Shown piece by piece: positions 11,649-16,607 of a DNA stretch of 64,000 nucleotides. The DNA is taken from assembly GCA_022072165.1 (NCBI GenBank), contig JAJVIF010000001.1, positions 337,353-401,352 on the forward strand, read 5' to 3'. The notes below the pieces were generated by a model, which ran no database searches, was not told the DNA's origin, and was given only the letters and a program-made list of their open reading frames with translations. The position numbers and the translations under genes were made by a program. Position 1 is the stretch's first letter; each line of letters opens with the position of its first letter. This DNA comes from a bacterium. Its GTDB lineage: Bacteria > JAJVIF01.

Positions 11649-12641
11649 CTACCGGTGGAGGTATGGATGCGATGCCGATCCGGCCGCAGTCAGACGCAGG
11701 CTCACCACCAGTTCCTCCCCGGACGTTGCCGTGACTGACGACATCTCCGGGAACCAGGATCCTGCCCCGGCCCAGACCGAGTAGCTCACACCGGCAGGGA
11801 CCGCCGGGAAGGTCCAGCGTCCATCGCTACCTGTCACCCCGCCGATGCCGAAGCGATCGATCAGGGGTCGTTCAGGATCGCTCACCGCCAGGTGGACCGG
11901 GACGCCAGCCAGCAGCCGCCCATCCGTCGAGCGGACTTCCACGGTCACCGTGCCGGCTGTCGCGCCCGTGGGAAGGAGTGATCGCAGCTCCACATCGCCG
12001 ACTGTGAAGTCATCACCGATCTGCGGCAGCTCATCGAATGGGGATTCCACCACGAAGGGCCGGAACCCTTCCTGCCCCACGATGAGCCGGACCGGATTCG
12101 CCGGAAGCCCAGTCAGTCGGAAGAAACCGTCCTCTTCCGGCGACCCTGCCGGAGCGGTGACTGCCCGCGCCAGCGCTCCATCGGCGTAGATGAGTAGGAT
12201 TTCGCACTCATTCAGCCCGCGACCCTCGACATCTTTCACACGCCCTTCAAGCGCGTATGGCCCGCTTCCCAGGAGCGGCCAGGAGACCGTGACATCCGGC
12301 AGATTCGCTGCACCGATGCGTCCCAGGTCGATGTCCGGCTGCTCGTCCGGTTTCACTGTGATGGGCAGTGTCACCAGCGGCGTGTTCCATTTCGCTACCC
12401 GGATCGTGTAGGTCCCGGGGAGGATGCCAGGAATGGTGTAGCGTCCAGCTTTGTCGCTGACAGCAAACAAGTCTGAGGCGTTCAGGGAGACCCGGGCATA
12501 CGGCACCGCGTTGACGTCGCCACCAATCGGTTGCCCCACGATGGCTGCTCCCGCCCCTTCGCCTGGTTGACCAGTCGTACAGCCGAGGCACAACGCCAGC
12601 GTCAGCCAGCAGAGGAAGGTCCGGATGGGTAGATATGTCAT
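11649..12641 (-). CDS. lipoprotein with three carboxypeptidase-regulatory-like domains
   Basis: A 330-residue lipoprotein: signal peptide with the lipobox LCLGC ending at about residue 21, then three beta-sandwich units of the CarboxypepD_reg/transthyretin type (about 35-105, 120-215 and 225-310), each with the typical turn such as GRYTIPGILPGTY or GRWTFPAVPAG. These domains are structural or binding modules on the cell surface. Its ATG overlaps the TGA of the TPR-CHAT gene (ATGA), so the two are translated from one mRNA. The same kind of domain is fused to the XRE regulator upstream, which suggests a shared ligand or partner. No catalytic motif is seen. Confidence 0.8.
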   Translation of the reverse strand: MTYLPIRTFLCWLTLALCLGCTTGQPGEGAGAAIVGQPIGGDVNAVPYARVSLNASDLFAVSDKAGRYTIPGILPGTYTIRVAKWNTPLVTLPITVKPDEQPDIDLGRIGAANLPDVTVSWPLLGSGPYALEGRVKDVEGRGLNECEILLIYADGALARAVTAPAGSPEEDGFFRLTGLPANPVRLIVGQEGFRPFVVESPFDELPQIGDDFTVGDVELRSLLPTGATAGTVTVEVRSTDGRLLAGVPVHLAVSDPERPLIDRFGIGGVTGSDGRWTFPAVPAGVSYSVWAGAGSWFPEMSSVTATSGEELVVSLRLTAAGSASHPYLHR

Positions 12642-15118
12642 GACAAACCTCTGACTTCCGGCATCGGACCGGTTGGGTGTGGCGAGGAGTGCGACTGTAT
12701 GGTCAGCCGAAGTCTGGGAGTTCCCCAGGGCTGAAAGCCAGCCCAGAGATAGGGATGCCGAGCGAAGCCTGCGCTCCGCAGCTCAAGGCACCCTGCCCGG
12801 ACCCCTTCGGCCAGGGAACCCTCCAGCAGCAGGGTTTGATAGCACGATGCCATAAAGAGCGCGGTGGCATCGTCGCGGACTTTCCAGCCTCCAGCGAGCA
12901 TGGATCGCGTCCCGGTAGTCAGCAACGCCCGCAGGAAGCCCTCCACCAGCGATGCTGCTCCCTGTTGCAGACGAGCCGTTTCGCACGCCGCCAGGGTGAC
13001 GAGTTCCAGGTGGTCGCCCTGCAGCCGACCAGCCAGAAAGTCATTGACTGTGATCTGCTCAGTGCCTGTTTCAATGGTGCTGGCCAGTGGGTCAGTAGGG
13101 TCAAAAGTGCCGTGCCCTGCAAAATGCAGGATCCGGGCGGATGGGAGGACTTCCTGGAGCCACGCGTGCACCTCGACTCCCGCAGGCGGACCGCTCACGA
13201 CTCCCAGCGGCTGCAGAACATGGCTCAGAACTTCGAGTTCGCCCTGCAAATGGACCAGATCAGCAGCGTTTCCCGTCAGGAGGACCGCACGCGATGGAGC
13301 ATCTGGCTGGTCCCGTTCCAGCCGACGTGGCTCCAGATGTGCGAAGTAGGGGACCAGCTGGATGGCACGCTGTTCGATGACCGGGGCTTGATCCGGACCC
13401 AGCAGCGCCAGCCAGGGGACCTCCAGCAACGGTCCATGCGGAGAAATGATCCACGTACTCAGATCGCTCCAGTACGCCGGCAATCCTTCCAGCAGACCGT
13501 CGCTTAAAGGCACCAGCCAGTCGAGGACTGGCAGCGAAAGGGTCGACTGCTCCGCGACCGGTGTCTGCTCATACTGGTTGAGTTGATCGTTCCACTGACT
13601 CAGCAATGAAGTGAGCGCTGGGGGGGAGAGCCGCATCGTGTCGACCACCACGCCCCGACTGGGGTGATAGGCGAAGCGGAAGATGCGCTTCTCAGCGACG
13701 AAGTAGTCCAGGAGTCCTTCCTGGGTGCCCAGGATGTCGTTCTCCCACAGAACATTGAGCAGTTCGAGTCCCAGGTTGTGGGTGTAGGGGAGGCTCGGCA
13801 ACGGCTCAGTCGGGAAGTCGCCGGGGAGTCCCGCGATCCATCCTGCCTGCTTGGCTTCCTGGGCCAGACTCCAGGCAAGCGCTGTGTCCTGCCGACTCAG
13901 CGCATTCTCAATGAGTGCCCCGTAGAGCCCGCGCTGCTGGACAAGAAAGCTCCGGCGTTCCTTTTCGCCCGTTAGCGACCCCTGCTGAGTCAGAAAACTA
14001 TTGCGCGCCTGTTCCAGCAGTCGCCAGGCCCGGTCCATCGCTCCCCGCGCATGTTCAGTGAGAAAAATGCCGAGTCGCATCTGGGCTTTCCAAAGACGCT
14101 GGGGCAGCCGGTGCGACTCCGCCAGATCCAACGCTTGCTGATACTGTTCCAGGGCTTCCTGCCGCCATCGATCAGCTGCGATCTCGTCGCCAGCAGCCTG
14201 TGCCTTTTCGAGACGGGTTTCCGCCAGCGAGCCACGATTAGAGCAAAGGTATTGCTCTGCCACTGGATAGGGATGTCCCACCAGTAAGTCGCTGGCTGTC
14301 TGCAGGATCTTGTCAGCTTCATCGAAGCGGGACATTGCCTGGCAGATCGCGGCCATGTTGGAACAGGTCAACAGGCGGTTCAGGGAGGTCTCTCCCAGCT
14401 CGGCGTACCACTCCAGGGCCTTGTTGGTGAATTGCCAGGCCTCTTCGTAGCGTTTGAGCTCGAGGTAAATGAAACCGATGTTCTGCGCGACACTCGCCAG
14501 ATGACGGACCCGCCCTAAGCGTTTGAAGCGCTGGAGCGCCTGCTGAAAAGATTCCGCCGCCGCGACATCGAGCCCCAGTTCCAGTTCGGTCAGCCCCTGG
14601 TTGTTCCAGATCGTCGCGACCTCTTCGTCCGTGCCCCCATACTGCGCCAGCGCTGTCTGGGCCGCCTCGAAAGCGGCCATCGCTGCTGGATAGTCGCCCC
14701 GCAGCCGCGCAATGAGACCCAAATACCCTGCAATCGGGGCTGACTTCCCGGGAATCTCGAGTGACTGGGCTTCCAGCAAAAGATCTTCAGCTCCCGCCAG
14801 TGCTGTTGGATCAGCCTGCAGCGACATCAGCAACAGACGCGCCCCGGTGATGCAGCTTGCTGCCCGGAGCTCCGCATGATTTTCTGTGACCTGATGGAGG
14901 GTGGACCAGAGTCGCTGCGCGAGGTCGCCCTCGCCGAGAATCGCGAGTGCCAGGACCCCGTGACAGGCTCCCGCAATGTCGCCCGGGTCCCGCAGCAAGG
15001 TGGCTTCCTGGATCAATGTCGCCCGACCAGCCGCATCCAGCCCGGCAAGCCGGGGGAGCCACTCGTCATAGGAGCCGGCGTGCCAGGGAATGGAGACCAT
15101 GGTGGCTGGCGGATGCAT
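12638..15118 (-). CDS. TPR-CHAT caspase-like protease
   Basis: An 826-residue protein. About residues 60-430 consist of helical TPR repeats (for example the AGYLGLIARLRGDYPAAM unit), typical protein-binding superhelices. The C-terminal 300 residues are a CHAT domain, a member of the caspase/separase clan. Its dyad is present: His669 in HFAGHG and Cys712 in LAACETA. TPR-CHAT proteins act as proteases in signalling, including the Craspase of type III-E CRISPR, but no CRISPR genes are near. No signal peptide is seen, so it is cytoplasmic. It lies between an XRE-beta-sandwich regulator and an overlapping lipoprotein gene. The substrate is unknown. Confidence 0.88.
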   Translation of the reverse strand: MHPPATMVSIPWHAGSYDEWLPRLAGLDAAGRATLIQEATLLRDPGDIAGACHGVLALAILGEGDLAQRLWSTLHQVTENHAELRAASCITGARLLLMSLQADPTALAGAEDLLLEAQSLEIPGKSAPIAGYLGLIARLRGDYPAAMAAFEAAQTALAQYGGTDEEVATIWNNQGLTELELGLDVAAAESFQQALQRFKRLGRVRHLASVAQNIGFIYLELKRYEEAWQFTNKALEWYAELGETSLNRLLTCSNMAAICQAMSRFDEADKILQTASDLLVGHPYPVAEQYLCSNRGSLAETRLEKAQAAGDEIAADRWRQEALEQYQQALDLAESHRLPQRLWKAQMRLGIFLTEHARGAMDRAWRLLEQARNSFLTQQGSLTGEKERRSFLVQQRGLYGALIENALSRQDTALAWSLAQEAKQAGWIAGLPGDFPTEPLPSLPYTHNLGLELLNVLWENDILGTQEGLLDYFVAEKRIFRFAYHPSRGVVVDTMRLSPPALTSLLSQWNDQLNQYEQTPVAEQSTLSLPVLDWLVPLSDGLLEGLPAYWSDLSTWIISPHGPLLEVPWLALLGPDQAPVIEQRAIQLVPYFAHLEPRRLERDQPDAPSRAVLLTGNAADLVHLQGELEVLSHVLQPLGVVSGPPAGVEVHAWLQEVLPSARILHFAGHGTFDPTDPLASTIETGTEQITVNDFLAGRLQGDHLELVTLAACETARLQQGAASLVEGFLRALLTTGTRSMLAGGWKVRDDATALFMASCYQTLLLEGSLAEGVRAGCLELRSAGFARHPYLWAGFQPWGTPRLRLTIQSHSSPHPTGPMPEVRGLS

Positions 15119-15133
15119 GAGGAGCGCCCCTCC

Positions 15134-15151
15134 CGCGATCTGACGATCGCG
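15134..15151. promoter_or_regulatory. 18-bp palindrome upstream of TPR-CHAT gene
   Basis: CGCGATC-TGAC-GATCGCG, a perfect 7-bp inverted repeat with a 4-base centre, ending 16 bases before the CHAT start codon. Its size and place suit a dimeric helix-turn-helix operator, for which the adjacent XRE regulator is the obvious candidate. Confidence 0.5.
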
Positions 15152-15167
15152 TCATCCGGATAGACAA

Positions 15168-15204
15168 GCATAGCTGAGCGCATCGGCGCGCTCCCTGGCT
15201 ATGC
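15168..15204 (-). terminator. hairpin between XRE regulator and CHAT gene
   Basis: GCATAGC (15168-15174) pairs with GCTATGC (15198-15204), and GAGCGC (15176-15181) pairs with GCGCTC (15188-15193). On the minus strand it is followed by TTGTCT, a weak T-tract. It may terminate the regulator transcript, attenuate read-through into CHAT, or act as an operator. Confidence 0.45.
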
Positions 15205-15232
15205 GAACAGGACTGGTGCGGGGCAGCGAAAC

Positions 15233-15766
15233 CTAGAGGTCGAAAGCGAACTTGTCCCGACCTGGGCGGACATCGACCGGGACCACCCGCTCGCCGCCGA
15301 AAATGATGTATTCCCCGGCTTCGAGGTCCTTGAAGACAAACCGGCCTTCGCGACCAGAAACCGTCGAGTCGATCTTCTCCCCATCCCGGATCAGATGCAC
15401 CGGCGTGTAGGGTCGCCGACTCCCCCCCGGATCGGTCAGGAAGCCTTCGATACGGTTTTCCCGGACTTCCACGGTCCCGGCTTCGCCCCCGGACCGGACC
15501 CCGGCCACGGCCAGGTTGCCATTGGAGATCACAATTCCCAGGGCTGTGACTGCTGGCAGCGCGAACGCCGGGCTGGCGACCGTCTCCGGAAACACCTCGC
15601 CCAGCGGGAATCCCAGGGCATCGGCAATCTTCTGCTTCGACAGATCGCTGGGCTCGCAGTCGTTCCGTTCGATCTTGCTGATCGTCGGACGAGCCAATCC
15701 ACTGGCCTGTGCCAGCTCTTCCTGGCTCATGTGGGACTTCAGACGGCAATCCTTGACGCGGTTCAT
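15233..15766 (-). CDS. XRE regulator fused to a carboxypeptidase-regulatory-like beta-sandwich
   Basis: A 177-residue protein. Residues 1-62 are an XRE helix-turn-helix (SQEELAQASGLARPTISKIE). Residues 80-177 are predicted all-beta and contain EGRFVFKDLEAGEY, the hallmark turn of CarboxypepD_reg/Cna-B-like domains that are normally extracellular. There is no membrane helix, so the sandwich is probably a cytoplasmic sensing or dimerisation domain. The gene starts at ATG with GGGAGG 6 bases upstream and has a near-consensus promoter. It stands 114 bases upstream of the TPR-CHAT gene on the same strand, with a palindrome between them. I do not know this architecture from named families. Confidence 0.8.
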   Translation of the reverse strand: MNRVKDCRLKSHMSQEELAQASGLARPTISKIERNDCEPSDLSKQKIADALGFPLGEVFPETVASPAFALPAVTALGIVISNGNLAVAGVRSGGEAGTVEVRENRIEGFLTDPGGSRRPYTPVHLIRDGEKIDSTVSGREGRFVFKDLEAGEYIIFGGERVVPVDVRPGRDKFAFDL

Positions 15767-15814: not shown

Positions 15815-15843
15815 AACTTACAGGACGTTACAGAAGCTGTCAA
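15815..15843 (-). promoter_or_regulatory. promoter of the XRE-beta-sandwich gene with internal repeats
   Basis: On the minus strand TTGACA, a 17-base spacer and TAAGTT. Two copies of CTGTAA, 10 bases apart (plus-strand TTACAG at 15818-15823 and 15828-15833), sit inside the promoter on one helical face and may be autoregulatory operator sites. Confidence 0.6.
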
Positions 15844-15958: not shown

Positions 15959-15982
15959 AACACCTCCCGTACAGGAGGTGTT
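15959..15982 (-). terminator. terminator after SH3-like membrane protein gene
   Basis: AACACCTCC pairs with GGAGGTGTT around CGTACA; on the minus strand it is followed by TGCATTG. It lies about 28 bases after the stop of the gene at 16011. Confidence 0.55.
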
Positions 15983-16010: not shown

Positions 16011-16607
16011 CTAAGAGCCTTCCCTTCGCTTGCGGGCTTCTTCCAGCAGTTTGCGCTGCCGCTCCGCTTCTTTCTTCTGTTCTTCTCGACGCTTCGCGAC
16101 ATCTTCCTTAGCCTGCCCCCACTCCTTGGACTCATCAGAGGCGGCGGGCTTGGAGGCTCTGAGGTAATGCCCAAGCAGCCATCCTCTATGACGGAACTGC
16201 GCCTGGGTTTCGACCCGATACCAAGTGCCCCCCCGACCCTTCTTGATGTCGAGAACTTTGACTTTTGTGCCGTGGGTGACAGTCCAGGTTTCGCTCTGCC
16301 GATCTGTCTCACCGCTTCCTTCCCAAGTGTAGTGGAGCTGGATTTCAGTCTCATCCCAGCCCAGAACATCCTGCTTCCCCGCGACATACACGACGCTGCC
16401 GACCTGGAAGGTGCCCGGCTCCGGTGCTTCCTCGACAATCGGCTTTAGCTCGATGTAATCACTCATGTCTGGTGGTGGGGGCGGCGGTGGATCAGGATTG
16501 ATATGGGTCTTATAGAGCGCGTAGAGCGTCGCCTGCTGCGACACTGCGCCGACCCCTATGCCCACCACGATGGCGAACAGCGCCAGCCACTTGAGTGGAG
16601 AATCCAT
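16011..16607 (-). CDS. membrane-anchored SH3-like protein with coiled-coil tail
   Basis: A 198-residue protein: one N-terminal membrane helix (about residues 5-27), a run of seven prolines (39-45), a beta-rich domain (about 65-145) with GTKVKVLDIKKG and a WYRV segment that looks SH3-like, and a highly charged Lys/Glu/Arg coiled coil (about 158-198). The domain faces the periplasm if the helix is a signal anchor. SH3-like domains often bind peptidoglycan or peptides, but no precise family is recognised. A GGAG ribosome binding site stands upstream of the ATG. Confidence 0.65.
   Translation of the reverse strand: MDSPLKWLALFAIVVGIGVGAVSQQATLYALYKTHINPDPPPPPPPDMSDYIELKPIVEEAPEPGTFQVGSVVYVAGKQDVLGWDETEIQLHYTWEGSGETDRQSETWTVTHGTKVKVLDIKKGRGGTWYRVETQAQFRHRGWLLGHYLRASKPAASDESKEWGQAKEDVAKRREEQKKEAERQRKLLEEARKRREGS

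Follow-up and report, generated by a model that had tools for sequence, protein, structure and literature searches.

An XRE-sandwich regulator conserved beside a TPR-CHAT protease and a CarboxypepD_reg lipoprotein

An XRE regulator that ends in a beta sandwich is paired with a caspase-like protease in a locus that is real and conserved, and of which we found no earlier description in the literature searched. We analysed a stretch of 64,000 nucleotides (the window) of contig JAJVIF010000001.1 from assembly GCA_022072165.1, a genome of 3.26 Mb on four contigs. Three adjacent genes of the window, all on the minus strand and placed as in a preliminary description of this DNA, encode an XRE-CarboxypepD_reg regulator of 177 amino acids (15233..15766), a predicted TPR-CHAT protease of 826 amino acids (12638..15118) and a lipoprotein of 330 amino acids with three CarboxypepD_reg domains (11649..12641). 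We take this triad for a likely variant of protease-controlled transcription and not a defence island. What is known of CHAT-type caspase relatives in bacteria comes mostly from CRISPR defence and from cyanobacterial development, and to our knowledge most of these proteins have no known substrate. The locus, together with parallel sigma/anti-sigma operons of other phyla, gives one entire class of TPR-CHAT proteases a neighbouring candidate substrate, with defined sites for experiment, and adds, for an uncultured phylum, a predicted regulon whose regulator and targets have one domain type in common.

Tentatively, and with somewhat less than even confidence, we read the triad as a protease-switched envelope regulatory circuit, in which TPR-CHAT would inactivate the XRE regulator and so derepress CarboxypepD_reg lipoproteins. 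The XRE protein would bind a TGTAWC-N4-TGTWA operator in its own promoter and in those of a few CarboxypepD_reg lipoproteins, acting most likely as a repressor (repression rather than activation is our assumption). The TPR part of the CHAT protein would sense a signal; the cytoplasmic TPR-CHAT would inactivate the regulator by cutting it or in some other way, the probable place being the flexible loop that joins HTH and sandwich, and the lipoprotein genes would be released, including that of the CHAT's own operon. Our observations cover gene conservation, the domains, the catalytic dyad, the footprint and its recurrence and the parallel operons; the DNA binding, repression, cleavage, cleavage site and signal of this scheme are inferred.

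The start codon of the lipoprotein gene and the stop of CHAT share 4 bp (ATGA), and Pfam recognises CarboxypepD_reg in the lipoprotein over three stretches (E=9e-22). The window lipobox, LCLGC, is imperfect (Cys at -3); those of the relatives read IAGC, VIGC and FAGC. Between regulator and CHAT lies an intergenic stem-loop, GCATAGC...GCTATGC (15168..15204, minus strand), with counterparts in two related genomes, G001 and G003 (intergenic regions 15119-15232 in the window, 15025-15139 in L057 and 3873-3975 in L058). In G001 and G003 a T-run follows it on the 3' side, making it terminator-like there, and it could possibly hold protease levels below those of the regulator. Because the stem-loop lies between the two genes, the role of the regulator may be limited to setting CHAT levels. 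The XRE protein would then merely control expression of CHAT and the lipoproteins, and CHAT, as a stress or cell-death effector, would hit cytoplasmic targets other than the regulator. We consider this explanation, to which we return below, possible and somewhat on the unlikely side.

Four genomes of the phylum were available: that of the window (G000), G001, G002 and G003. G001, a metagenome-assembled genome from Lake Pavin sediment, has the order regulator, CHAT, lipoprotein as in the window. The same order is found in G003 up to a contig end inside the lipoprotein gene, a fragment matching the remainder being on another contig, and the G002 contig begins within CHAT, with a thioesterase-like gene next and then the lipoprotein. 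CHAT and lipoprotein are thus present in 4/4 genomes, with one lipoprotein orthologue in each, either near CHAT or cut at a contig end. The regulator orthologues in G001 and G003 are 51-55% identical to that of the window; between families, identity is 51-54% for the regulator, only 24-25% for CHAT and 26% for the lipoprotein, and the order is preserved across families that have little else in common around the locus. The triad is a conserved unit, supported by the co-occurrence of the three genes in relatives that the preliminary description had proposed to look for. We also observed that CHAT (12638-15118 in the window versus 15140-17428 in L057) and the lipoprotein diverge far faster between families than the regulator (54%) and its paralogue (55%, own genome against G002). 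When the contigs of 85,000 species genomes were scanned, the full regulator did not turn up outside the phylum.

In the TPR-CHAT protein, Pfam identifies TPR_12 (E=1e-16) and CHAT (E=7e-35; 121.3 bits, cut-off 24), the CHAT domain spanning residues 555-799 (12722..13456, minus strand). It includes His669 and Cys712, the dyad named in the preliminary description, whose numbering was correct and which is invariant in all four CHATs of the phylum. By domain score and catalytic His/Cys the window protein belongs to the CHAT peptidase family and is a predicted protease. No recognisable signal peptide was present at the CHAT N-terminus in the window, G001 or G003, and the protein is therefore taken as cytoplasmic, like the regulator, the lipoprotein being exported; an action of CHAT on the mature lipoprotein, proposed earlier, is accordingly unsupported. 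By sequence, the nearest solved CHAT is the TPR-CHAT of Craspase (E=3e-10 for the G001 CHAT), and the spacing between His and Cys is 43 residues in both the window CHAT and Csx29. The NCBIfam model of Csx29 (NF041237, cut-off 300) was not reached, with 24.8 bits for the window and 63.2 for G001. In a tree of 82 CHAT domains the branches were long and unresolved, and the four CHATs of the phylum did not group.

The regulator begins with an XRE/HTH_3 DNA-binding domain (residues 4-57; 15596..15757, minus strand; HTH_3 E=2e-11, AlphaFold2 pLDDT about 90), the fold of which matches CylR2, C.BclI, DdrO and CapH in Foldseek. The AlphaFold2 model places the HTH at 4-58 and a beta domain at 99-166. 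Residues 106-153 match CarboxypepD_reg at E=2e-4, under the Pfam cut-off in the window protein, and the match recurs in all 5 regulator homologues, the best at 4e-7; Pfam, homologues and AlphaFold2 together delimit a C-terminal CarboxypepD_reg-like sandwich at residues 106-166 (15269..15451, minus strand). Between the two domains is a flexible loop, residues 85-96 (LAVAGVRSGGEA, with Arg91; 15479..15514, minus strand; pLDDT<50), which is a candidate cleavage or docking loop. GVR is present in this loop in 3 CHAT-linked regulators and missing from 5 unlinked ones. The domain assignments of the preliminary description, an XRE HTH followed by a CarboxypepD_reg-type sandwich in the regulator and three sandwich domains in a lipoprotein whose start overlaps the CHAT stop, were thus confirmed, and the regulator C-terminus is CarboxypepD_reg/Ig-like, not unrelated to CarboxypepD_reg/Cna-B domains.

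The regulator sandwich is of a generic type and not specifically that of the lipoprotein. A special kinship between the two was dropped: only the G002 lipoprotein matched (3e-11, three stretches), and no better than a lone G002 XRE protein or a secreted G312 protein. This result bears on another explanation, in which TPR-CHAT reads the sandwich fold as a decoy or quality-control device, so that unexported lipoprotein precursors compete with the regulator's sandwich for CHAT and couple regulation to export or folding. The CarboxypepD_reg type common to regulator, adjacent lipoprotein and predicted targets favours it, as does the cytoplasmic location of CHAT, but the regulator sandwich is no closer to that of the lipoprotein than to those of unrelated secreted proteins, and we find this explanation improbable. 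Equally speculative, and in our view also unlikely, is its extension, that TPR-CHATs are general cytoplasmic switches recognising sandwiches, with the regulator mimicking the fold of its target lipoproteins, CHAT weighing unexported lipoprotein against the regulator, and lipoprotein expression tuned to export. If true, sandwich recognition would be feedback by molecular mimicry, and the locus the first in which an XRE regulator is coupled to a caspase-like protease.

Paralogous XRE-sandwich regulators without CHAT nearby are encoded in all four phylum genomes (L063, 9952-11444, and L060, L061 and L062). In L063 and L060 (own genome and G002; paralogue identity 55%) they adjoin a gene for a DUF92-type membrane protein, and in G001 and G003 they sit on other contigs. 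One XRE-sandwich protein, G002:C87, was considered as the missing regulator of G002 and rejected because it is without the GVR loop and not near CHAT.

When the sequences that precede the regulator gene were aligned for three genomes, a footprint emerged, TGWCANYTNNTGTAWCNTNNTGTWA, with the core TGTAWC-N4-TGTWA. In the window this candidate operator/promoter occurs once (0.00 expected in shuffles), upstream of the regulator (TGACAGCTTCTGTAACGTCCTGTAA; 15818..15842, minus strand), and it is kept in G001 and G003. Since it sits in the regulator's own promoter, the XRE protein is predicted to bind it. No palindromic operator is conserved upstream of the regulator; tandem TGTxA repeats are found there. 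With up to 2 mismatches the four genomes contained ten sites and the backward control none, three of the ten being the regulator promoters used to build the pattern and 7 being further sites. All three further sites of the own genome, in two promoters (C1:946197 and C2:94903/95023), precede CarboxypepD_reg lipoproteins (1.5e-27 and 2e-11), the second of which is followed by a PLD-like lipoprotein; in front of that pair (L345/L341, G000:C2 about 94.9-95.05 kb) the footprint is present in two copies 120 bp apart. In G002, 2 of the 4 sites precede CarboxypepD_reg lipoproteins, one (L344) at an operon of a CarboxypepD_reg and then a PLD-like lipoprotein similar to the own-genome pair, the second before a multi-CarboxypepD_reg lipoprotein; of the other two, the first is intragenic and the second sits at a contig end. 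At the thresholds used G001 had no site besides that of the regulator itself, and the exact core was found neither elsewhere in 244 kb of phylum loci nor in the promoters of the paralogous regulators.

Because the footprint recurs before other CarboxypepD_reg lipoproteins, the domain type shared by regulator and lipoprotein is probably meaningful. The preliminary description had treated the triad as a unit with a meaningful shared domain type; the unit stands as conserved, and the meaning of the sharing as probable. With a regulator and predicted targets of one domain type, the role that CHAT proteases play outside defence can be tested directly in a laboratory strain. The footprint also overlaps promoter-like hexamers (TTGACA-N17-TAAGTT at the window regulator), so part of its conservation may be promoter, and several sites read by eye as TTGACA-N17-TAxxxT promoters. 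It could then be a mere promoter type and the three genes neighbours without a functional link, as the identity of only 24-26% of CHAT and lipoprotein between families might also suggest. That the order is kept in families sharing little else around the locus, and that the sites concentrate before CarboxypepD_reg lipoproteins, both argue against this, and we consider it very unlikely.

At three mismatches chance matches appear (17 real versus 4 control). Among these weak sites, L351 (G000:C1:997523) immediately precedes a secreted subtilase and L347 (G003:C370:10756) a serpin lipoprotein, that is, a protease and a protease inhibitor; in G002, another lies before a POTRA protein.

We searched 385 genomes with a profile built from the phylum's four CHATs and then read the neighbourhoods. 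An ECF sigma and/or a zf-HC2 anti-sigma lies near both top-scoring CHATs outside the phylum, and near about one third of the forty best. Of 319 ORFs from 41 loci, an HMM of the regulator C-terminus matched 3. Two are the anti-sigmas that immediately precede these two top-scoring CHATs, and the third is a secreted protein that had been included in the set because it already matched. At least 24 of the 34 members of this anti-sigma family directly precede a CHAT (contig ends or overlapping frames account for several of the others), and the gene 3' of CHAT encodes a secreted S8 subtilase in 10/10 cases tested. An ECF sigma - anti-sigma - TPR-CHAT - S8 subtilase operon is widespread in other phyla, and we found no paper under those words. 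Loci with this arrangement and a sandwich anti-sigma are L165, L166, L180, L187, L294-L304, L306 and L310. As in the window, a regulator ending in a sandwich is followed by a cytoplasmic TPR-CHAT and then an exported protein, the genes overlapping or close; unlike it, these operons have an ECF sigma and a zf-HC2 anti-sigma in place of the XRE regulator, and a subtilase in place of the lipoprotein. The window XRE regulator occupies the anti-sigma slot of these operons, and in the proposed circuit a one-component regulator would replace their sigma/anti-sigma pair. No members of the CHAT-linked anti-sigma family were found in G000, G001 or G003.

In an alignment of 19 anti-sigmas (A5 numbering) the sole invariant residues are Asp96 and Arg107. 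The AlphaFold2 model of one anti-sigma has helices at 8-75 and a confident sandwich at 87-203, with a disordered loop, 104-107, that holds Arg107; in the window regulator the disordered loop (85-96, Arg91) is similarly placed, before its sandwich. Profile alignment of regulator and anti-sigma C-termini gave local similarity of the sandwich only (P about 2e-4). A shared cleavage motif (AGVR91-S versus the anti-sigma linker) was tried and rejected, the regulators scoring no better than shuffles in a two-block PSSM. The anti-sigma linker motif, [AG]xLVxDS...xR[GST], does not occur in the regulators, which have GVR alone in a similar loop. The negative PSSM test makes the idea of a shared cleavage site weak, and the GVR loop is a lead and not evidence of a common site. 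Like the stem-loop, this failed test fits a regulator that merely sets expression; against such a role, the similar sandwich and invariant-Arg loop of the anti-sigmas in other phyla suggest contact with CHAT, and the closest TPR-CHAT of known function targets a transcription-control protein.

Csx30, the sigma inhibitor of the type III-E CRISPR system Craspase, is a substrate of the TPR-CHAT Csx29 and is cut by it (PMC10028731). In the pairs DdrO/PprI and CapH/CapP, a partner protease inactivates the XRE repressor (PMC10904395). These precedents, joined with the anatomy of the locus, make inactivation of the regulator by CHAT the most likely reading; by analogy with them, and both proteins being cytoplasmic, it is plausible that CHAT acts on the regulator. 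Craspase (CASP: Csx29, Csx30 and CASP-sigma; PMC10028731) resembles the triad in that a TPR-CHAT is encoded with a cytoplasmic transcription-control protein. It differs in that the window CHAT scores well short of the Csx29 cut-off and its partner is an XRE protein, versus the sigma inhibitor of Craspase. No gRAMP/Cas7-11, Csx30 or CRISPR array component was recognised among the flanking proteins scanned (PADLOC/Pfam). DdrO/PprI (IrrE) and CapH/CapP of CBASS (PMC10904395) likewise combine an XRE regulator with a protease and have a cuttable linker to a C-terminal domain, and the window regulator's fold matches DdrO and CapH. Their protease, however, is a COG2856-type zinc metallopeptidase, which is absent from the triad, whereas that of the window is a cysteine CHAT; moreover, the C-terminal domain of the window regulator is a CarboxypepD_reg sandwich, and no link to DNA damage was seen. 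For the cyanobacterial CHAT HetF we know of no XRE partner or lipoprotein operon. HetF, which acts in heterocyst development and division, is similar in having a developmental or regulatory role and not one in defence (PMC8406250).

In an anti-phage or programmed-death module CHAT would be the executioner and the XRE protein an antitoxin-like repressor. Known CHAT proteases act in CRISPR defence (PMC10028731) and PADLOC gave weak matches to capH and BovA, but CHAT and lipoprotein are in 4/4 phylum genomes, the predicted targets are lipoproteins, and the genes around the triad encode an M17 peptidase, a two-component system and ScpA/ScpB. The patchy occurrence and placement in defence islands that mark defence systems were therefore not seen, the genes being in all four genomes and the window copy having housekeeping flanks. 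On these grounds an anti-phage role, including the defence role suggested earlier, is unsupported, and we give it very little credence. Elsewhere in the window, just past an SH3-domain gene (16011-16607, minus strand), a 12-nt near-perfect inverted repeat, AACACCTCCCGT/ACAGGAGGTGTT (15959-15982), is possibly the transcription end of that gene.
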